From contig CM067374.1 in NCBI GenBank assembly GCA_034401795.1, positions 132,133,262-132,197,261 on the forward strand: a stretch of DNA of 64,000 nt, given 5' to 3'. How positions within the stretch are numbered: the first letter of the stretch is position 1; each line of letters begins with the position of its first letter. The notes beneath the pieces were generated by a model. The model saw nothing but the letters and a program-made list of their open reading frames with translations. It did no database searches and had not been told where the DNA came from. This DNA is from Chaetoderma sp. LZ-2023a. Lineage: Eukaryota; Mollusca; Caudofoveata; Chaetodermatida; Chaetodermatidae. This document shows, in pieces, positions 4,510-56,802 of the stretch. The position numbers and the translations under genes are program-made.

Positions 4510-6140
4510 GCAGCCTGAACCCTGAGAGTTACTGACTACAAACCACTACTTACTGTACACAACTCTGAAGGACACTTTATCGGGACTGACCAGGGAAAGG
4601 CTGAGGCGATCCGAGAATGGTTCAAGGAACAGTTTACTGACAACGATGATGAGCCCTTGCACCCATTCTCAGGAGACCCTAGGCCATTACTAACACCAAT
4701 TAAAACAGCAGAAGTTGAGAAGGTACTTAAAGCCCTGAAAAACGGACGTGCATCTGGACCTGATGGCATGAGCAATGAACTATTCAAATATGCAAGTGAC
4801 ATTATCTCAAAGCCGATCACGCACCTAATCAATTCAGCTTTTATGCACCACCTTCCCATCCACGCTGTACGTCAAGGCACCCTTATCGCACTACCCAAGC
4901 CCAAGAAGCCATGTGGGGCCCCAGCCAATCTGCGGCCCATTGTGCTCCTCAACAGCACATGAAAAGTCCCATCCAATGTTACCCTATGCCGCATCTGAGA
5001 CAAGATCCATTACTTTACCGGATCATGTCAAAGTGGCTTCAAACATGGCTGTGCAGACATTGTATGGGCTCAACGCATATTAGGATCGGTAGTCATGTCC
5101 AAACAGTTGAACTGCCACAAAATGGGCATTGACATGTCACGAGCCTTCGACACAATTAAACGCTCAAAGATCATAGATGTACTACACCAGGCCAGTTGCA
5201 ATGAAGATGAGCTACAGCTAGTGAGACTACTGCTTGCAGACACCAAGCTGAGAGTATGAGTCAAGTCAGTGAAGTCTCTAGAGTTTGAGACATCAATCGG
5301 CTCCCCGCATGGAGATGGTGCTACCTTGCTGCCACATTGAATTCTGTGTGGGAAAGTTCCACAAGACCAAACCCCTCAGTGTCAATACTGGGCATGTCAC
5401 TAGAGATGGAATATACTGACGATGTGGACTTCATAGATGAGGAAAAGAAACCCCCTGACGAACTTCTCCCAATAGCTGCAGGCAAACTAAAAATTGAAAA
5501 TCTCTTTATGAATGAATCCAAAACAGAGTTCACCAACATATACCTATCGACAAAGCATGAAACTATAAAAACTGACGACCCACTTCGTGGCAGCGACAAA
5601 TGGAGGAAAAGTAAAATCGTGGGCTCACTGCTTTGCAGTACTGCTGACATTTCTGCACGCTGCGTACAGTCCTTCTGGAAGCTATGGATTCGTAGATCAA
5701 AGATGTCCATGATAAAGAGGCTACGTTTATACAATGCAACCTGCGTATCCTTGATGATGTATATCTGCAACAGCTGGGCAGCTCCAAGGGCAGCTCTAGA
5801 CAAACTCGATGCCTGCCACCACAAACACCTACACACCATCACTGGACACTGATGGCCAGACAGCATAATTTCCAACGATGCACTATAAAAGATTTGTCTG
5901 TCTGTAAAAGTCGCCCAGCAAAGATGGTTCATGTTTGGCCATGTGCTAAGGTTGCCAGAAGAGACACCAGCACAGAGAGCCTTGAAATTCGCCCTACTCG
6001 GAGCCAGCAAATACAAAGCCAGTTGAGAATGGCATTGCATAATTCTGCTAAGCATTGCTACGAGGTGACCTCAAGAAAGCAGGACTCAGTACACTCAAGT
6101 CAAGAATGGATCTGAGGCCGCTAAATAACGCGGCAACTAC
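4510..6140 (+). mobile_element. Degenerate LINE, reverse transcriptase to C-terminus
   Basis: Conceptual reading on the plus strand gives typical non-LTR reverse transcriptase landmarks: VLKALKNGRASGPDGMSNEL (near 4720), TLIALPKPKKP then LRPIVLLNST (4880-4960), MSRAFDTIKRSKIIDVL (5133-5180), a GSPHGDG block near 5300, and a C-terminal tail with DACHHKHLHTITGH (5810-5850) and DLKKAGLSTLKSRMDLRPL (6066-6120). The reading is broken by stops and frame changes throughout, so it is a dead 5'-truncated copy. The catalytic YxDD region is not clear. The clade was not assigned. Confidence 0.8.
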
Positions 6141-13300: not shown

Positions 13301-16300
13301 TACTCAATACATACAAGATACTTTTCTTGATCTCGAATTGAAGGAGATCTCGCGAGATACGAATGAGGCTAAGAGGTGTATTTTACTTGTAACTACTCCG
13401 GCAACGTAAGAAGCGACCTAATCGTTTTCATTTCTTGGGCATTCAAGCAATTTGTCTCGTATGTCTTAGCCCGTGATGGATCATTTTATGTTTGTCGAAC
13501 TCTAAGGGAAATAATGATTTGTTTGGATTGGGAGTTCATTGTATAGCGTCGTTGTTTTCGCAGCGCGTTTCTTGATTTTTTTTTTTGTATCATGTCACAT
13601 TTGGAATCCTAATTAAACATAGTACAAACTCGAATTGAAACAAGGATTATTTGTTGCAAAGAAGAAATTTAGATTTTCAAATTATTCAATCTTACATTGA
13701 ACCTGTAGAACTTACGTCATGTAAAATTCATTGCTGGCAAATCAAATCCTCGGCCAATTTGTTGGGATTTCACCAACACCCTTGCTTTCCCACGGCTAAT
13801 AGTTATAGATGACTGTATTTTATGGTCTCTAGTAGCAAATGGTTACACTAGATGATAATATTAAACTGCAAGTCAAGAACAAACTAGTCTAGGCCAGTCA
13901 CCAGATTTTGCACAATGGCGATCTTACGGACGGTTTTTCATTTTTTTAATTTTCATAATGGTTTCTAAACCATCGCCATAAAAAGCCGGGAGACGGTGTG
14001 AAACCGGTATACCACCAAGCCCTAAGTACAGGAGATCGATAATTTGTAGGATATGTAGGTTAATACCCTGATCGTATAGGTGACATTTCAGGGACACATG
14101 GTCCACAACGTCGTAAGCTTTTTGTGTATCAAGGAAAGCCATATATATAGGAACATTTCTTTTCAGTGAGTTGTGAGTAGTCTCTGAGAGGGTAAGGCTG
14201 GCCATTAGTGGGAATATGTCGTTAGTGAACCCGTACTGGAGTAGTGACTGACTCTGGGCCAGCTGATTTCTTATGAGATTTAGAATGGTGTACTCAAACA
14301 CTTTATTGGTGATGGAGACAACTGTGATGCCACGGTAGTTACTCGGGGACTCATTGAGTCCCTTAAGGACTGGAATAATCACTTTAACTATCGGTCAGTC
14401 ACTCAGTGGCTGTGCACAATTAGATGACACAGTGTTTCACATTTGTTAAAAAAATAATTGTAGATTTTTATGTAAACATGCACATGGCTAAGTAGGTCCA
14501 CCAATCCTGAAAGGCGCAACATAAGTAACGATTGATGCATAAGACATGTATGTTTTTTCCGAGAAATATCTATATTGTTTATGCCGCTTCTGCTGATCAT
14601 TCCATTCCCGTTCTCTCATTGGCTAGCATGGCAAAAATTATCCAGTCACTATATGAAGAAAAAATGTTCTTCCTAGGAATGAACATTGTTTATTTAATCA
14701 TGTCGTGGCTGAGTCGCTGACGCTTTAGGAACTTTGATGAATGGCTATCCACATTCTACAATAGACTGTTGAAACTGTTTTCGATGAGCTTGTGAATTTA
14801 ACAGGCTAATAATAACAAGCGGGTCACACGATCAATCAATTTAGAAAAGTATTGTGACATATATTGGTTGAAATATTCACGGAAGAGTTTGCTTGAAGAT
14901 ACACTTTCAGATTCTCTCGAAATGGCATCGACCAACGCGAGGGAATGATATCCAAATTGGATCCCCACAGTATACTGGAGAAAAAGAAGAGGGAACAGAA
15001 TGATCTTAATTCATTATATGAAAGTCGGATCAGATGTAATGTGCAGTACTCGGTCACCATCATGCAATAATAAAAATAATAATAATATATAGTAAGTTCC
15101 AAGTCCAAACCGCGGGTCGTGAGTCACGGGCGAGTACTCGCTCTAAGTACCAGAATTGAATCTCTAATGTCACATGACTTTTATGTTTACACTGCATGAA
15201 ATGTAGTCATATATTAATTTTGATGTAATAAACGATGGGCATTAATTGCACAAAATATACCTCTAATTTGAGTTATCTCTGTGGAATATCATACCTTTGG
15301 AAATGTTGAAGATAACTTTACAAAATTTTCAGGACCTGCCAGGTTCTAAATCATTTACCCATGGTCATACATGGTTGTATATATTAATATTGTTATATTC
15401 ACAGATTTCCTATGTGATTACAGGTTTTTCAAGTACATTTCTGAGGTTATTGTGAAAATAGGCCTGTTGCCACTGCTATTGTCTTTTGTGACATTTTAAC
15501 ACTCGTTGCGAGAAAATGGATGCGCCCGAGGAGTCACGTTTTCGAGCGTTTTGGGCATATTCATTTTATTATTTCTCGGCAATGGAACAGTGTATTTTAT
15601 ATTTTTTTGCGGCAACTATTTCGGATTATAGTATATTTTTAGTTGACTTATTCCCAATTTTCACTGGAATTTCCCTTTAATAATTTAAGAAATAATCTGT
15701 TGAATATTTTAAAACTAAGTTTACTTAGGCAGCAACAGCTTCCAGTCAAATAAGTTTCAAAATATTCAACATGTTACCGGTATGGTTGTTTTGAAATTAA
15801 CATACTATTTCAGTGGTGAAAGAATTAATGTCTTAGACTAAGGAGTAATACTATATAGTTCTAACAATTAAATTTAAATTCTTTTCCAAAAAGTATTCGT
15901 TTTCTAGCTTGACCAGTTAAAGTATATTAATAAAGTCTATTTATAAACAACCAAAATCGATTTCTGAAATCATGATCGATCTGTTGGTTGAACATGCAAA
16001 CCAATCGATCATCGATCAAATCGATTAATCGGAACAACACGACCTTCAAGTGGGACATCAAGTTACATGTGTTGCACAGTTTACATATCAACTTAATATC
16101 ATCCTGAATAAGACCAAGGGTACTGTCAGATTCAAAACCAAAATAACTCCATATACATGTAGGTGATGTAGAATTGCGTTTCTGGATTACCTCCTAATTA
16201 CCGCTAATCAGAACTAAGAATAATGCTTAGAAATGTTTACCAAGACTTTGTATTTAGAAGGTGGAAGATTGCGTAACTGGAAACTACATGTACATGTATT

Positions 16301-22300: not shown

Positions 22301-25300
22301 TTTCACGTTATCAGATTTCAAACGACTTGTCTAGCCAATTCCATAAATGCGTTGTGTAATAAGTTCTGACGCATTGTCAAACTGTTTCCAATCCATTTGT
22401 TTTACTTTCACACTGCATTGTTTTACCGCTCACAACGGGAAAGTGATGCATCCATTATTTTTAAATAAACCCGCTATGTACGCGTCATGCACGCGTTGCA
22501 GACGCATTTTATGTTAAGTTAACTCTAAGCTGTACTGTATGTATTAATAGAAGGCCACAGTGGTCACGGCGTTACTATACATGTAGAGAATATAGTTTAA
22601 GAAGTTGTACCAAAACTGGTATCTGTCAATAAATTGCAGCAAATCAATAAGATACATACCTCCCAATACAGCTATTTCCATTTTAATGTTGCTAGTTCTA
22701 AGCATTCTATTTAACAGTTACATGTATGTCAGACTTTTCAAAATAGTAAATTCTGTATCCATAACTCATAACACATTGCATATAGTCCAGTAAAACTACA
22801 AATTAACCTAGAACAAATTGCAACAGAATTTATTTCTTTTCTGCGGCATTCATGGGACTGCCAGGTGTGACATATCAAAAGTCCTCCAAAATCCCTCGAT
22901 TGGAAAGGGGATAAATTCACATATTTAGCTAACGCCATTATCCGAATAATGAAACTTCCCTTACCTGCTTCATTCCGCAAATAAACGAAGTAGAAATGTT
23001 GTCTAAGCTCTGAATTTCATGGTCACGGAAGACAGTAAGCAATTGGCAATATTGCCTTGAACCACTTGTACAAATTCTCCAAACCACAGATTAAATATGG
23101 TTGTATGCACAGGGTTGGGGTAATTTAAAAAAATTATATTTAAAGTAAGTTTAATTTTGTTTTTCGCTTTTAAGATTTTATCTAAAATAAATTGCATTTT
23201 AATTTTCACTTTTATCTCACAATTGGAATAAATTTCTATACAATTCAATCAGAATATGGACATGGATTTAGATACATGCGTTATTTGTAACCGGAGCCTA
23301 GAAAATGGCTCACAAACTGTTAAGCTTCGAGTTAAAGGCTGTGACGGTATTAACAATGCTAGCAGAGCCCGTGAAAGCGATGTCATAGCTGAAGTAGGAC
23401 AGAGGGTTCATGTAAAATGTCGACGGGAGTTCATTGATCCCAAGCGGATTGCCCGTGACGCAGAGAAAATTGAACAATCTCCGCCACCCATGCGAACACT
23501 CCGTTCAGAAAGTCCAACATTCAATTTTAGTGAACATTGTTTGCTATGCGGATACCCTGCAAAAATTCAAGATGGAAAGAAACGTTGGTTGTTGTCTATG
23601 CCCGCATGTGCAGATGTGTGTAATGCAATGCAAGAGCTCTCTGGGGTAAACTGTGATTCAAGTGAACAACACAAAGATTCCACACAATCTCGAATAAAGC
23701 GTGATATGGATGATAGTTACAAAATTCTCAAAATCCTTAGTGAACTGAATCCATTTGGACCAGACCCTTCTCTTAGAGGACTTGTTAGTGGATTGTCTGC
23801 ACATGAATCAGTCAATGTTGACGATGCTAAAGATATTGGAGAATCAATTATTAATTCGATGTGTGGCCAATGTGTATCAAGCATTTCGTTCCAGAGAAAG
23901 AGACAAGCTATTACCTTAGCATCCAAAACATCTCTCAAGATTGATGATGAATGTGTACAAATTGATCCACAACTCCTATTTCAAAGACTCAGTTTAATTG
24001 CTACAAATGGATCAAAAGGGAATCCATCATCTTATTTTGAGTATGAGTTGTGCACTCATCCGCCCGCACTCTTTGATAATTCATCTCTTCCATGGGAAGC
24101 AAATAAGCCGGCACTTGCTGATGCATTGTGGAAATTAATTCAAAATGAAGATGCAGTCCTTCCAGATTCTGTCCACTATGTGCTTGATGGAGGAGCTCTA
24201 TTACACCGTGTTCCATGGCAGCGTGGAGAGACATTTGCAAATGTTTGTCAAAGATATGTAAAATATTGCATAAGCAAATATGGAAAGGCTACAGTAGTTT
24301 TTGATGGTTATGACCAAGGCCCAGACATAAAAGATGTAACACATAAGAGGCGAACTCGTGGATCAGGCGCAACTGTTGTACTGACTCCGCAAACAGTTGT
24401 AACTCTGAGTAAGCCTGATTTTCTTAGTAACAAGCAGAACAAACATCGGTTCATATCAATCTTAAGTTCATCTCTCGAACAGGCTGGATGCTTAACGATA
24501 AAGGCAAGCGGTGATGCTGATGTCTTAATTACGCAAACGGCTATCTTGGCTTCAAAGTCAACAAATACTGCTCTTGTTGGAGACGATACCGACCTACTGG
24601 TGTTGCTTCTATACCATACTGATATGAATGGCTGTCAGCTATTTTTCAGACCAGAGCCAAAGCAAAATGCAAAGAAACCCCGACTGTGGAATATCAAAAT
24701 GGCAAAGGAAAAACTCGGGTTCTGTTTGTGCTCACAGCTGTTATTTATCCATGCTATCCTTGGCTGTGACTCAACATCTAGGGTTTATGGAATTGGAAAA
24801 TCTGCATCCCTTAGCAAAATCCGGTGCTGCAAAGAACTCTCTCAAATTGCTGAAGTGTTTACAATGAGTAATGCGAATAAAGATGACGTGATAAAAGCAG
24901 GTGAGAAGGCAATGCTTATTCTATACAATGGCACTTCAATGGATAGTCTAGTTGCTTTGCGGTACAAGCGATTCAGGGAGAAGGTTGCAAAAAGTTCCAA
25001 GTATGTTGAAGCACGAGATTTACCACCAACACCCGCATCCGCAAAGTTTCACAGTCTTCGCGTGTACTACCAAATTCAAGTTTGGAGAGGAGATGCTGGA
25101 GATATGGATCCAACAGAATGGGGCTGGAAAGTTCTCAACCACCAAATGCTGCCTGTTAAGACTGACATGCTGGCAGCACCTGACGATTTACTGTATTCAT
25201 TTAGATGCAGCTGCAAAACTGGCTGTGAATCAAAGAGATGCACCTGTAGAAAACATGGGCTCAGCTGCACATCCGCCTGCGAAGACTGTAAGGGTCTCAG

Positions 25301-28300
25301 TTGCTCGAATTCAATAACGCTCATTGAGGAAGATGACTTGGATAATTGATGCAAGATGAAATTAGTAGAAACCAGGTACCTATGCCATACTATTTCATCT
25401 TAGCTTAGCTTAGAAACACACAATACCGTGACATAATAAAATATAATATGTATTGTATCAATATCAATGATGGTATTAGGTAAATTCATGCAAGTGGCAT
25501 AACACAATACATTTAATTTGTGGAGAATATGTCAATCGTATTCATTTATTACTAAAAAAGTCCAAAAATACCCAGTCACACATATATTACATACCGGTTT
25601 TAAAGAAATAAACAAAAATGGATTTTTCAGGTGAAATGGCCCAAATCTGGTAATAATTATGCAAATTTTACCCTTTCCCCTATTGGAATTTTGGAGGACT
25701 TTTGATATGTTGTACATGATGGCCCCCTATACACTGGGCGAGGTAAAAAAATTATGTTGCAATTTGTTCCGGGTTAAAATATTTTTGGCCTAGATTGACT
25801 GGACTAATATACTAATAGTCAATGCACTGGATTTCTTCCGACAAAGAATTAAATTTCCCGCCAATTTTAGCAGGTCATGAGGTCAACTCGACTCAGTTAT
25901 ATTACCTAAAACCAGTGTTATTGCCTTTCTTTATATATGCATGCACAAACTAAACGAGAAAATGATGTTAGTTTGTGCGAGGTTGCGCAAGCTCGCGTGA
26001 CGTAGCATGAAAATAATGTTTGCTTGGGCGAGCTCGCAAAAAATAACGGTTAACTCCCGCAAGGTTGTGCCAGCTCGCTGCGAACTTGCGCAAGGTTGCA
26101 GCGAGCTTGTGTAAGGTATAATTAATGGAAATGATGAAAGGAATAGAAAAATAATTCTGGTTGTCATTTGTCAAATTATACGAAAAATCATTTATGAGGT
26201 AAAAAAAGTTCGTTGAATATTTTGACAGTAATTTGAGTGTTGAGGTGTTGCTAGTCCATGCTGTCACGGCGAGCCTGCGCAAGGTTGCAGCGAGCTTGGC
26301 ACGCTCACGCAATCTAAAATTCTTACCACACGCTTGGCGCACGCTCGCCGTATGCTTAAATTTCTGAAAGGGACAGGTGTGATAAGTGGCTGAATAGCTT
26401 GAAAGTATTTCCGAAAATGTTGGTCCCGATCCCAGGATGATTCATATTAAAGAAATATTAGTTACATGTACATGTACTTCTCCGGGATGTAGAAATTGTT
26501 TGAGTGTAGCTTTTGTGAGCATCTCGGTCACTTCTTCAGCACTAACTGGCAGTCGCTGGCAATGTCACTCTGGTCAGTTCTTGTGGAGTTACGTGACAGC
26601 ATGGACTAGCAACACCTCAACACTCAAATTACTGTCAAAATATTCAACGAACTTTTTTTACCTCATAAATGATTTTTCGTATAATTTGACAAATGACAAC
26701 CAGAATTATTTTTCTATTCCTTTTCATCATTTCCATTAATTATATATGTTGACAATTGTTTTAACCCTTTAATGGCCCAAACCGGCCTCTGCTATGGTCC
26801 TGTGGAATGTCCATTTACACGCCAAGAGAATACAATTTTTGAAAATTTACCACTGGAATGACTGGCCCAATCACCGAGCCAATCATTCCAATGATAAATT
26901 TTCAAAAATTATATTCTCTTGGCCTGTAAATGGACATTTAATAAGAAAATATTTAAATATTTTAAACCAAATTTGAGCATTAAAAAGTTAACCTGTATCA
27001 TACTCATGGCAATGTGTTCTTTGTTACGTGGAGTGTACAAAGTAAAACATGCAGAAGAAAGCCTGCTGTATATTTTGACAATGATGTACATGTATGCTGT
27101 TGAAACCTGTATGCATCTTATGGCAGCATTCTTTTATAAACAGGGTTCGACTTATCATGGAAATCCTGGAAAAGTCATGGAATTTGACAATTTTATATTC
27201 CGGGCCTGGAAAGTCATGGAAAATCATTGTTTTTTTATGATAGGTTATGGAAAATGGTAACCATGTAAAATAAATAGAAATCTGTTGACATAAATCAACT
27301 CCAAAAAAAAGTTGGAATAAAAATGACGGCAAAAGCTTATCAAAACAAGACTGTGGCTTGTTTGTTGCAAGAGGCAATATTCAGACCTTTTGCAGAAACT
27401 TGGATCTTGTTTTAGCAGCTACATGTACATGTATGTCATAAATACAAATCTCCTAATAATTCTTAGAGGTCATAGAAATTGTTAATTTTGGTCAAGGAAA
27501 AGTCATGGAATTTCAAGCACAGAAAGATGTGAATTTGGATTTTTTCCGGTTAAACCTATTATTATCTATATTATACATGTAATTCCATTTCAGGGCTGTT
27601 GTTAAGTCATATTACACCGCTAGTCTCCTCTTTGATGTTCTTACTGTCTTTGGTGAACTCTCTGATGATGTAAGTATGTATGCAGGCTTGCAGAATTCAT
27701 CCATATTTAAATATATCTCAATTCGAGTACCGTTAAATCCTGTGTATATTGCGCTATCGTGCATAGTACGCACCCCTAAATTTAACCAAAATCGGCCTGA
27801 AAAAAACGTAGTTTTCGTGTATAGTGCGCAGTAAGATTGAGAGACGTGTGAACGAAAACTGGTAAAAAAAAAAATCAATGACTTACTGCGTGTCGAATAC
27901 GCTTTCCTTATAAAATCTTGTTTGTGGCGCGTGTTACTCTGTTGTTTAATCATGGGAATATCATTCGCCTACACTTTTAGCAAATATTTTGTATTAAACT
28001 TTATTGAATGATATAAAAATACAAATATAATTTCCATCAGAACAGGTTAGAATCCGAATTTGATTTGAGCAGAGCTCATTAACATAAATGGTCGTTAGAA
28101 CATAAAAGATCGGATATTTATTTTGTTTCAATTCATAAAATATGAGTTTTGTGCGCTGATACTTGAGAATAAAATCGATTTTAATAAATAAAAAAAATCA
28201 AATCCATTTTGGCTCACTCTAACAGTGCCGGTAATTAGTTTGATAACTATATCAAAGGCGAGCCCATGAGATTTTATTCAATCATATACACAGTAGATGA

Positions 28301-44618: not shown

Positions 44619-44945
44619 AATTTTGGCCAATTTGGACAGAAAAATCGTTTGCAGAAAATCATTGACTATGTCAAGGATGTGTCCGCTTTTTCCGACTAAA
44701 TTGCTATGGATTACTACCCAGCTGGCTGGAATCGTTAGATGGGATGACGAAACTGACCAAGTCAGCCAATTTTAGTATGGTCTTGGTCACAGAACAAACT
44801 TCTATTTCTTAATGTTTCAAATTTATGCTTTTTCAAAGTATTGTTAATCACTGTCCAGGCTATACAGGAGTCACTAAAGTGATGTCAATGAAATAGACTT
44901 TCAGCAAATACTGCAAAAATACCTTTGACAAAAACGTCCCTTTTA

Positions 44946-44972
44946 GTAGTAGTCGTAGTAGTAGTAGCAGTC

Positions 44973-45034
<62 letters not shown>

Positions 45035-45106
45035 CGTAGTAGTAGTAGTAGCAGTAGTCGTAGTAGTAGTTGTAATAGCAGTAGTAGTAGTAGTAGTTGT
45101 AATAGC

Positions 45107-45162
<56 letters not shown>

Positions 45163-45170
45163 CAGCAGCA
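44946..45170. repeat. (GTA)n trinucleotide microsatellite
   Basis: About 225 bp of GTA/TAG units with GTC, GCA and TTG interruptions, ending in GCAGCAGCAGCAG. The poly-Val and poly-Thr frames across it are artefacts. Confidence 0.95.
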
Positions 45171-45529
45171 GCAGAAATGAACAAAACTGCCAGAAAAATC
45201 TGATGATCTGCTCAGGAATTTGGGTTGATGTAACCGGTCGGCAAAATAGAATCGATCAGCAAAATGAAATCGCTATATGGGCGCCCGGCTTAACACGCAG
45301 CATTCATCTAGAAATCAACCAGAAACAAAGTAATCTATTTTCTAGCTTATCAAGTTTCTGCATCATAGTGCCTGACATCAGATCATGAGTTTGTTCCATG
45401 ATGACGTTTGATGTAGGCTGAAGTATGTCATGTCTTTCTGGGTATGACTTATTTCTCTTAAAACGGTTGGCCATTTTTAGCTTGACTGCACGTGGTCCGA
45501 CGGCGGCGGTGGTGGTGGCCGCGTCGTCC

Positions 45530-52045: not shown

Positions 52046-52241
52046 GAAAATGTCACAGTGGAATGTACGGGGGAAGTCTCAATAAACACCATCATTGACT
52101 AAGCACGACGAGGAGAGTGAAGACAGGTATTGATCTAACACGTGGAATTTGAATGTCAGAGACTCCCCCTTTACTGCGGATCCTTTTAACGCCTTCATGT
52201 GTAAACATCAACCAAGCCATGCAAAGCCTTAAGCGTTAGAT

Positions 52242-52559
52242 ATGAAACTAGAGCATAATAATCTATCACGAGCCAGACGCGTTAGGAGTGTCAGTAATCA
52301 TTTTAAATTTGGAGCTTATCTCCAGGAGACGGACCATCTCATTCACAGCAACCCATTGCTCAACATTTTAAATGGTATGCCTGCTGAAAGAGGGGTGACT
52401 GTAGAAAAGTCATCAGAGATTGGAGAAGTCATCCTTTCGCCTATTGTTGGAATGTCTTCTGATACCGAGAAAACTAAAGGAGTGTTTGCAATATGCAATA
52501 AACCGCTCCTTATCAAACTCTCCAAATACTTGTTAGCATCAAAAAAATTAAACAGCTAG
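52242..52559 (+). CDS. Hypothetical 105-aa ORF
   Basis: Starts MKLEHNNLSRARRVRSVSNH and ends SKYLLASKKLNS. Composition is protein-like (basic start, mixed hydrophobic middle), unlike the repeat-derived frames nearby, but no family, splice site or neighbour supports it. It could be a fragment of a mobile element or chance. Confidence 0.2.
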   Translation: MKLEHNNLSRARRVRSVSNHFKFGAYLQETDHLIHSNPLLNILNGMPAERGVTVEKSSEIGEVILSPIVGMSSDTEKTKGVFAICNKPLLIKLSKYLLASKKLNS

Positions 52560-52865
52560 ACTAATTCATCCATCTTCTCACCCAATCATACACCCGAGTT
52601 ATCTATCAACCCAAGTATCCATCGTCATCATTGTTAAAGCGATGCTAATCTCATCTCAAATGCGATAGATTGTACGATAGATTATAGTTTATGGATTCCA
52701 TATCATTCACATCCTGTTACATTCCCTTACATGTATCACAATCATTTGCTTTGTAACATGGTGTAAACATTGAACAGTGAGCACCGTGATATTGTTTACT
52801 CAAGCGATAGTGTATGGTGTCATGTAAGTGCCAATGCATTACATTATTTATTATGCAAATCATCT

Positions 52866-52950
52866 TGGTGAATATTTTGGGGATAATTTGATTGGAAGTT
52901 GTCATTGCCTATGGCAGTAACGGCTTCCGGTCAAACTGGTCTCAGAATAG
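52866..52950. repeat. Hairpin subfamily B copy
   Basis: GGTGAATATTTTGGGGATAA, GGAAGTTGTCATTGCCTATG and GGCAGTAACGGCTTCC. The right arm is decayed. Confidence 0.6.
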
Positions 52951-53363
52951 TCATCAGCTTACTTGTATGATTGTTTTCATATCATATTGCCAAATTATAT
53001 GTGACACCGCTATGACTGAGCGTATTGACCAAGGCAGATACGCTAGTTTTTCCTTCTGATTGGTTGAAAAGTAAGGCATGACAGCCACCATAGGCTTTGG
53101 AAATGTACCAACGTTTAAACTACTCAAGCCTGAATAGCTTTCTTTAGCGGCATGATAATAAGCTTAATATTATAGTATAGTTTACGAATGACGTGTTAGA
53201 TCAGCTGAACAACTATTGTATGAAGTTAGTTCTCCTTTAATACTGCCTGAAACACTGCAGGGGCAAGTGGCCCAAAATAGTTAATAAATTGATTATTGTT
53301 GTTTTCATTATTATGTAAGCGATCCCACTGTCGTAGCCCTCGTCGGCAGCGCGGCGGAGATGG

Positions 53364-53366
<3 letters not shown>

Positions 53367-53401
<35 letters not shown>

Positions 53402-53411
53402 TAATAATAAT
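53367..53411. repeat. (AAT)n microsatellite
   Basis: About 15 ATA/AAT units with one AAA interruption. Confidence 0.95.
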
Positions 53412-53910
53412 ATTGTATTTCTACCGCCATTGTCAATGCACAAATAATCTTCATATGCCGTTGTCACGGCCTGAGTGTAATAAAGAAAATACGAAAAATA
53501 CGAAGAGAATACTTTCAGAAGGAAAGACTAGTCAGTTCCACTGACATCGGCGGCAATCAGGGTGAAATAGTGCGGGTTGACGCATAGCTACGCTTTCAGA
53601 GGTCATCGCGTATTGGCAATAGCTGGGATGAAATATCATCGTTTTTTTCAATCACGAAACGTGTACTAACCTGGCGCTTTGTTTGAATTGGTATCGCTTC
53701 CTTTTGGACGTCGCTTTAGCAAATGCCATGTTGAAATTTATGGTCGATTAGCATTTAAAATCACGTGAAGATATCCAGTATATCATATCAGCACTTCTAC
53801 ATCGCAATCCCTTGTCAAGAGTTTAAGCGTATAAGAGAACCATTTAACAGTGTATGAAACACGTAACAGATAAATATGGTAAAAAATGGAGCTGCTGAAA
53901 GTGCGACTAT

Positions 53911-54006
53911 ACCCACCCCACCCCACTAACCCTACCCTACCCTACCCACCCCTCCCTCCCCACCCACCCCCACCCACCCACCCACCCCTACCACCACCAC
54001 CCCACC
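53911..54006. repeat. C-rich simple tract
   Basis: CCCACC, CCCTA and CCACC units over ~95 bp. The minus strand has many GGG runs and could form G-quadruplexes. Confidence 0.85.
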
Positions 54007-54209
54007 AGCGGAAAACCGGGAAAGGTACACTCATGGCAAGAGGGGTCTTTTTTCTAAAGCAGTGTCTTGGTCTTGTCGTATGTAAAATAGTCTCTTTATG
54101 CATGAAATTCTCGGGCGTGGCACAAATTCTCATGATGGTTAAGGCTGATGCTATTTTCTGGGAGCAGGTAGAAAAGGTTAACTTAGCGGAAAGATACAAT
54201 AAGGACATA

Positions 54210-54595
54210 ATGGACTATCTCTATCTAAGCTCCAACCACATTTCGTCCGTGTTGAGATCGATCGATCCCTGAACTCCCTGACTCTCACTTTCCAGACAAC
54301 TATATAGGTATGCTGTTAAATATTTTGAAACTAATTTGACTGCGCGCTGTTAATTGCTGCCTATGGCAACAACAGCGGCAGCAACAGCGTCCAGTCAAAT
54401 TAGTTTCAAAATATTTAACAGCATGTCTATTAAATAGTAAAAACATACAATTCGTACAACGTGTCGGACTATTAAGCGCTAAAGACGGACTATTTCGGAT
54501 CATTCATGGCGTCTTGATTATGACGTCATCATACACGTCACGTAGTTGATTATGACGTCATATGATGGATGGATAAACATGGAAATGTCCATTAA
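54210..54595. mobile_element. Hairpin MITE, forward
   Basis: Head ending GATCGATCGATCCCTGAACT, hairpin 54311-54424, tail with TGACGTCA at 54521 and 54553, end GGATAAACATGGAAATGTCC. Confidence 0.75.
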
Positions 54596-54969
54596 ATCTG
54601 GATAAAAGGCATTGCAATGGCTGTATGAAGTTGTATGAATACGTGAATGGGACCTGTTTAACAAGGGCTCGAACTATACGCCAAATATGAAGCTACCCAG
54701 GACGGAAAACAATCAACTTCAATATAAGCTTGTTAGTGATCAGGTGTCTTGGAGCACTTCGTCGGTAGAAGCACAGTTACTACTGCCAACATCAGATGCT
54801 GCACGTTATAACAGTCGTCATCATTATTTCCAACCAACGAAGCGCTAGGCGATGATGATATAGGCTGGTACCCGACTCCTCATTCCCTCGCTAACGATTC
54901 TTTGGCCATTGTGATTATGAGCAAGTGGAGTCGGATACCAGCTTAATGATGATATGAATTCAGATAATG

Positions 54970-55370
54970 AATGATTCTGGTTTATCCATCAATCATATGT
55001 CGTCATAATCAACCACGTGACTTGTAGGCTGGCTTCATAATCAATTATGTTATGAATGACGGAGGTAAGTTCGTTAGGAAGGCTTAATTGATAACTGACT
55101 AAGGGCTGTTGTACGAATGGTATGTCTTTACTATTTAATAAACATGCTGTTGAATATTTTGTAACTAATTTAACCGGTCGCTGTTGCTGCCAGAGGCAGC
55201 AACAGCACCCAGTCAAATTAGTTTCAAAATGTTCATCAGCTGACCTGTCTAGCGTTTTGGAAACTTAGATTCAGAGAGTGCATGGGCCGATTTATCGCAA
55301 CACGGGCGAGGCGTGGGTGGAGCTTATCCAAGGATGGGCAGGAAATAGTTAAAACTGGATTCCTGCATTA
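54970..55370. mobile_element. Hairpin MITE, inverse
   Basis: Begins TCTGGTTTATCCATCAATCA, hairpin 55146-55247 (GTTGCTGCCAGAGGCAGCAA centre), ends TAGTTAAAACTGGATTCCTG. Confidence 0.75.
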
Positions 55371-55521
55371 AGAATGGCATGCTGTGGACGGTGGCTTGCG
55401 TAGGTTCGAGACTGATGATAAGGATGGCATTATGTAGATGGTAGCTTGGTAGACGGCCGAGATTCATGTACCATCTGAACTTCTTGATATTCTTAGTTGC
55501 AGTTGCAATAATGTCTAATAA

Positions 55522-56185
55522 AGCTGCGTTTACCTGGCATGCGGAAAGCGGGTTGCGGAAACGGAATGCGGAATATACTTCAGATCACTCTTTACTATTT
55601 GCCTTCATCTATTTACCTATACGCGGTAAGCGGTATGCGGAACGCGGAACAACGGGATGTGGAAAAACCGATCGCTCAGCGTAGCGATCTTTCCGGACGG
55701 AAAAAATTCCGTTGCGGAATAGAGCGCAGTAACCTAACAACGAAAGGGTAAACCAAGTAGTTAAAGCTGATAAGTCTTATAAGAACTAATTTGTAAATAA
55801 AATGAGGAAATCAGTAATATTATATTTACATGTTGTTAGATTAGGCCAAGGTATTATTTTGAATCTAGTCGTCAGTATCCGCCGTTTTGGATCTACATCT
55901 CTCGCCTCCGTACATAAACATTTTGTAATGGTCTCAGTGGAAAGCTAGATATCAAAGCGTAAAAATATGTGTTGTCGCTTTTGAAAGAAGTTTGATAGCA
56001 ATATCGCTAATATCATCAAACATGCGGAAAGTAATCAACCTAACGGGCGCAAGGTCTCTCGTAAAATAACGCAATGGTATCGCGTGCCGGTAAATGGTAC
56101 ACGCGATATTTTACCCACATTCCGCATAAGCGCTTTCCACTCCGCGTTCCGCATTCCGCACCCGCGTGCCACGGTAAACACAGCT
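55522..56185. mobile_element. PIF/Harbinger-type MITE
   Basis: Left AGCTGCGTTTACC and right GGTAAACACAGCT are inverted, flanked by TAA on both sides (55519-55521, 56186-56188), the 3-bp duplication typical of this superfamily. Subterminal sequence repeats GCGGAA/TTCCGC many times (for example 55541-55575 and 56127-56165). No transposase frame in 664 bp. Confidence 0.75.
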
Positions 56186-56269
56186 TAAGAAAGTGTGTGC
56201 TTGTAGAAAGTGGAGCTTGAATCGTAGTTCTGTTTTCCGACAATGTCGCGGCACTTGATGTAGTAATGG

Positions 56270-56500
56270 TGCATTCCAGTTTATTCATCACGCATATGTC
56301 GTCATAAGCAACTGCGTGACGTGTAGGCTGGCATCATACCCAATTATGTCATGAATGGCTTAGCTAAGTTCGTCACGAACGCTTAATCATGACATACTAC
56401 GTGTTGTTGTACGAATTGCATGTCTTTACTATTTAATAAACATTCTGTTGAGTATTTCGAAACTAATTTGAATGGGCGCCGTTGCTGCCATTTACAATGG
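56270..56500. mobile_element. Hairpin MITE, inverse, truncated
   Basis: TGCATTCCAGTTTATTCATC start, GTACGAATTGCATGTCTTTA, then half the hairpin ending at GGGCGCCGTTGCTGCC. A head-like piece (AATAGCTAAAAATGGAAAGG) near 56940 may be its other end. Confidence 0.6.
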
Positions 56501-56639
56501 CATTCATATTAGATTTATGCGAATGACCTTGTCATTCAATCGAATAAACATGTCTTGTAACTAATTCTGACCCCTCAAAACACCATTCTGGGAGTTTAAT
56601 CAACTCCTATATGTCAGCGGACAGCAGATATAGGGCACA

Positions 56640-56802
56640 TTTCTTATGCAAATTATAGGCACAGTTTCACGACATTTAGTTTAGGGATCATTTAGTATGA
56701 TATGGGAGCCTCATAGAGATGCATTAGGCCCATGCCAAAACTTATGTTGCAATTAGTTTAAGGGTCGGTGAAAAAATCGGCTCGATTGTCTGGACTAATA
56801 AT
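56640..56802. mobile_element. Solo right end of the FEN/CXC transposon family
   Basis: TTATGCAAATTATA, TTATGTTGCAATTAGTTTAA, then CGATTGTCTGGACTAATA follow in the same order and spacing as 25650-25810. No left end or ORF piece was found nearby, so it is a truncated or non-autonomous relative. It lies inside or beside a broken hairpin MITE. Confidence 0.65.

Follow-up and report, generated by a model that had tools for sequence, protein, structure and literature searches.

A very probable internal-deletion derivative of an AcademX-type DNA transposon in the mollusc Chaetoderma

Introduction

The nuclease of AcademX DNA transposons is XPG-like. According to excerpts of PMC10045372, AcademX elements encode a nuclease and have target duplications of 3 or 4 bp, compared with 9 or 10 bp for AcademH, and in passages of PMC10294476 the curated bivalve Academ elements have a mean length of 5,565 bp. 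Kolobok lineages, as described in part of PMC9587614, combine a DDE transposase with an accessory nuclease or helicase in one element. Here, we analyzed an element of 3,024 bp in a 64,000-nucleotide stretch (the window) of the genome of Chaetoderma sp. LZ-2023a (GCA_034401795.1, contig CM067374.1, positions 132,133,262 to 132,197,261). The element, at positions 22783 to 25806 of the window, is very probably an internal-deletion derivative of an AcademX-type cut-and-paste DNA transposon, i.e., an unremarkable derivative of a type already described. The parent encodes a single protein of ~1,480 amino acids (aa), in which zinc fingers at the N terminus are followed by a DDE/RNase H transposase core, then an EXO1/FEN/XPG-type nuclease, and a CXC motif at the C terminus. 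This reading builds on the observed missing block, exact protein breakpoints relative to the database protein P0126, a DDE-like fold in the model of a relative, the nuclease acids, and the terminal inverted repeats (TIRs).

Results

An initial annotation of the window, made from its letters alone, had predicted an intact open reading frame (ORF) inside the element, and this ORF was confirmed at positions 23256 to 25349 on the plus strand, with an ATG start, no internal stop, and a product of 697 aa (P0001). P0126 is identical to this product at 693 of 697 residues (four changes) and carries 787 extra residues as one block between its N-terminal fingers and its nuclease. Protein alignment, with tblastn agreeing, assigned residues 1 to 110 of P0126 to positions 23256 to 23585 and residues 898 to 1484 to positions 23586 to 25346. 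The deletion junction thus lies at 23585..23586 on the plus strand, where, between residues 110 and 111, the ORF lacks 787 codons (2,361 bp) that P0126 has. P0126 sits on a record of 5,412 bp, and adding the missing block to the element gives an inferred parent of 5,385 bp; the record may therefore be little more than one element.

Among the best 120 of 492 matches in a first protein search, no match covered more than 86% of the query, and P0126 was not seen because this search leaves out proteins more than 1.75 times as long as the query. When the N-terminal 125 residues were used, P0122 was the only protein found among 79 candidates. It carries the DDE block, and its residues 1 to 122 and 886 to 1165 match the window protein's N terminus and residues 111 to 386 at 46% and 59%, respectively. 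A search with P0122 returned many proteins of ~1,400 to 1,570 aa, with P0126 among the best 120 of 585 matches.

The missing block has a DDE-transposase-like fold in the model of a relative, with P-element transposase as the best structural match in a second look with a structure aligner; Foldseek gave no significant match for the DDE-block model. The initial annotation had seen no DDE pattern, which is right for the window copy because the DDE part is absent from it. The opposite polarity, with P0126 having gained the block by insertion into a compact ancestor, was rejected since P0122, other long relatives, and the full-length Porites, Patella, and Littorina proteins have the block. Loss by splicing was unsupported, as the junction codons, judged from the protein letters of P0126 and not from DNA, do not permit GT...AG ends. 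Model confidence is low around the junction, and so is alignment depth.

All domains of the 697-aa protein are encoded on the plus strand. Residue conservation and the model indicate a first zinc-finger-like module of the C2HC type (C8, C11, H52, and C55; positions 23277 to 23420), each of whose four residues is kept at a level of at least 95% in 28 relatives (alignment A3); in the model, residues 11 to 70 have block means of 84 to 96 in the predicted local distance difference test (pLDDT). Half of a second C2HC-like module follows (C95 and C98; positions 23538 to 23549), the rest being cut off by the deletion. In P0126, this module runs on to the conserved H159 and C162, both gone from the window protein, and these four residues would make up one finger.

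Residues 283 to 631 (positions 24102 to 25148) form an EXO1/FEN1/XPG-type nuclease domain, as indicated by profile, conservation, and model. All seven acidic metal ligands are retained (D311, D350, D420, D422, D444, D446, and D505). A profile built from 54 family proteins matched human EXO1 with an E value of 3.8e-4, one from the 60-row alignment A1 more weakly (E = 0.013), and the predicted structure of the ORF product matches EXO1, FEN1, and XPG structures. The FEN/XPG-like nuclease of the initial annotation is thus borne out by profile and model, and predicted fold and the seven acids place the window protein in the FEN1/EXO1/XPG nuclease superfamily. The CXC domain proposed alongside it is present as a Cys-rich motif at residues 651 to 685 (positions 25206 to 25310) with nine Cys conserved across the family, and some relatives are named "Tesmin/TSO1-like CXC domain-containing protein" by their source; as a domain match it is weak, TCR being the sole Pfam match of the 697-aa protein (E = 9.9). 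An NCBIfam search of this protein found nothing, and a single-sequence PDB search gave three rows, none better than E = 0.2.

The ends of the element are inverted repeats, as the initial annotation had stated. The left TIR spans 145 bp (positions 22783 to 22927, plus strand) and starts with TAGTCCAGT; the right TIR spans 153 bp (positions 25654 to 25806, minus strand) and ends with ACTGGACTA. Within the window, blastn aligned them at 69.5% over 154 columns (E = 4e-12). Their score of 131.5 was not reached by any of 2,000 random segment pairs of equal spacing from the same window (best control, 114; starts less than 400 bp from the element's start excluded). The likeness is confined to blocks: the ends themselves, a CAAATTGCAACA block, and ACATATCAAAAGTCCTCCAAAAT, which is identical letter for letter. 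Since the protein differs from its database relative at only four residues, we read these blocks as putative conserved binding sites and not as the outcome of decay. The start of the element stands as first proposed, and its end moves by one letter to 25806, the A at 25807 being flank. The flanks of this single copy hold a candidate 3-bp target duplication, ATA (positions 22780 to 22782 and 25807 to 25809). The same letters also fit a 2-bp duplication, TA, with GTCCAG as the ends, so the duplication is not settled from one copy.

A second, decayed relative was found in the window at positions 52111 to 56797 on the plus strand, consisting of protein fragments in family order followed by a right end ending in CTGGACTA. 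The fragments cover the protein from the last part of the DDE region up to and including the nuclease, with a best E value of 2e-19 for the linked pieces in tblastn. In hmmsearch, two pieces gave E values of 3e-7 and 1e-5 and two more 0.03 and 0.1; among these, a CXC-like piece is weak (E = 0.1). Neither the left end of this copy nor the greater part of its DDE region was found in the window. Its right end matches that of the element at 68.9% over 61 columns (E = 0.001), and this copy suggests that such ends belong to this protein family.

Motif patterns were scored in 241 family proteins, including incomplete ones, of which 50 have finger, DDE, nuclease, and CXC. Only the window protein combines finger and nuclease without either D motif. 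Named members of full length were found in Porites, Patella, Littorina, and Mytilus (P0230), all with a DDE-type block. In these patterns, the hagfish and fish relatives lack all three DDE motifs. The second D and the E are present in the sponge protein P0036 and in P0071 and P0078, two of the four sea-spider proteins, and the other two sea-spider proteins have the E only. Pfam reported DUF6589 in one of nine long relatives (26.4 bits, below the cut-off of 27; P0126 scores 16.6), and a literature search on DUF6589 returned nothing relevant. Two long family proteins, P0181 (1,443 aa) and P0201 (1,382 aa), are labelled 5'-3' exonuclease by a source; this label probably sits on a transposase fusion. 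In searches that may omit the window's own genome, there were no relatives in IMG/VR, no match in phage records, no hit of a 23-bp TIR block in IMG/VR, and no confirmed relative among 68 pattern matches in prokaryote genomes.

The element likely lies inside an intron of VTA1. The first part of this gene is at ~7.2 kb (PDB VTA1, E = 1.5e-7; Pfam Vta1, E = 3e-5, below its cut-off), and an ORF at 32 kb, with no Pfam match, is presumably a later VTA1 exon. Directly downstream of the element is a foldback element (positions 26117 to 26744) with two arms of ~153 bp, 99.3% complementary and ~320 bp apart. Elsewhere, the window contains a reverse-transcriptase fragment on the minus strand (positions 13927 to 14394; RVT_1, E = 2.6e-4, below cut-off), ORFs at positions 4519 to 5852 that look like a long interspersed nuclear element by eye (no Pfam match), and a long simple repeat at 44860 to 45388 whose translation is poly-Ser on one strand and poly-Leu on the opposite strand.

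Discussion

The autonomous layout claimed for this element by the initial annotation is not borne out, as P0126 has a DDE-type block whose 787 codons are absent from the window copy. A deletion is favored over a compact design because the window protein stands alone among the 241 in its domain combination and because the cut runs through the second C2HC-like module. In the parent, the DDE core would carry out both cleavage and joining of the element's ends. The fingers and CXC may serve in DNA binding, at the conserved TIR blocks or elsewhere, and the nuclease could trim 5' flaps or ends in the course of excision, integration, or repair. Excision-gap repair that stopped prematurely is the most likely source of the deletion, as is thought for internal deletions of P elements; a literature search on internal deletion by gap repair returned nothing relevant. 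As the window copy retains both ends and its own product lacks the transposase core, it would be mobile only in trans via the full-length protein.

Some observations weigh against an internal deletion or its filing under AcademX. A set of database proteins of ~585 to 680 aa consists of the nuclease half only and starts close to the junction site; among such nuclease-half proteins are annotated ones of ~600 to 680 aa in hagfish and cnidarians (e.g., P0014, P0034, and P0052). In the motif patterns, an N-terminal finger accompanies the nuclease in none of the set. At the protein level they look like late gene starts, with true nuclease-only copies as the alternative. In passages of PMC10294476, Academ elements in molluscs occur almost exclusively in bivalves, whereas two of the full-length family members are from gastropods.

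Of the other explanations, the one that survives best is that the deletion product acts like the KP protein of P elements, i.e., that it binds the TIRs, represses or poisons the full-length transposase, and was retained for that reason, which we consider unlikely. The ORF is intact with only four changes, and the first finger, nuclease acids, and CXC are all kept; there are also precedents in that small non-autonomous P elements are often able to encode repressors (in part of PMC7776569) and internally deleted copies likely stalled one experimental invasion (in part of PMC12393704). However, a young deletion stays intact even without selection, the second finger is cut, no other of the 241 proteins has such a shape, and the one protein found from 79 candidates by the N-terminal search has the DDE block. 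It is similarly doubtful that a KP-like product of a transposon with DDE and XPG parts represses its parent or, by an active 5' nuclease, misprocesses excision intermediates. We regard it as very unlikely that the genome holds a full-length element from which 2,361 bp were dropped in assembly, since the junction is clean and in frame, the window has no N, and the repeat scan gave near the junction only a 12-nt pair at 92% (positions 23590 to 23601 and 22997 to 23008) of an often-chance kind. Least probable is the proposal of the initial annotation that this is a compact autonomous transposon or a separate superfamily with the nuclease as its main enzyme, for although a single intact ORF with the full set of nuclease acids is enclosed by TIRs and certain annotated proteins consist of the nuclease half alone, the near-identical P0126 and the long relatives in Porites, Patella, Littorina, and Mytilus have a DDE-type block, and no other of the 241 proteins combines an N-terminal finger and nuclease without D motifs.

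Reading the element as an internal-deletion derivative removes one candidate for a nuclease-only transposon superfamily. What is gained is a picture of a family that has full-length members in both corals and molluscs and joins fingers, a P-element-like DDE core, an EXO1-type nuclease, and CXC. In the window copy the nuclease and transposase halves are naturally separated, which offers a way to study the role of the nuclease in such transposons; the portions of the literature searched contained no experiment on this role. Literature searches on Academ with XPG, on Academ with helicase, nuclease, and 3-bp target site duplication, and on CXC with XPG-like nuclease or PIN also returned nothing relevant.

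Compared with known systems, the nuclease resembles the EXO1/FEN1/XPG 5' nucleases in fold and metal-binding acids, and differs from them in sequence (~14% identity) and in being part of a transposon protein with zinc-finger-like modules and CXC. We know of no nuclease domain of this kind in the P element. As in KP-type P elements, the internal deletion keeps both ends, the frame, and an N-terminal module of DNA-binding type and removes the transposase core. KP, however, is a 207-aa repressor in the passages of PMC7776569, whereas the product here has 697 aa and its repressor role is putative. Kolobok likewise adds a nuclease to a DDE transposase, but with nucleases of the His-Me, lambda-exonuclease-like, and DEDDh folds according to excerpts of PMC9587614. 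The DNA transposon with an XPG/FEN-type nuclease seen by the initial annotation stands, and the suggested link to Academ is likely, given the nuclease and the 3- or 4-bp duplications of AcademX in the excerpts of PMC10045372. Compared with AcademX by descriptions rather than by reference proteins, the parent is likely a member, sharing a DDE-type core and nuclease, a 3-bp candidate duplication, and an inferred length of ~5.4 kb near the Academ mean. The window copy differs in lacking the DDE domain, which the long relatives have by fold and motif, and is for this reason filed as a derivative and not as an autonomous AcademX member.
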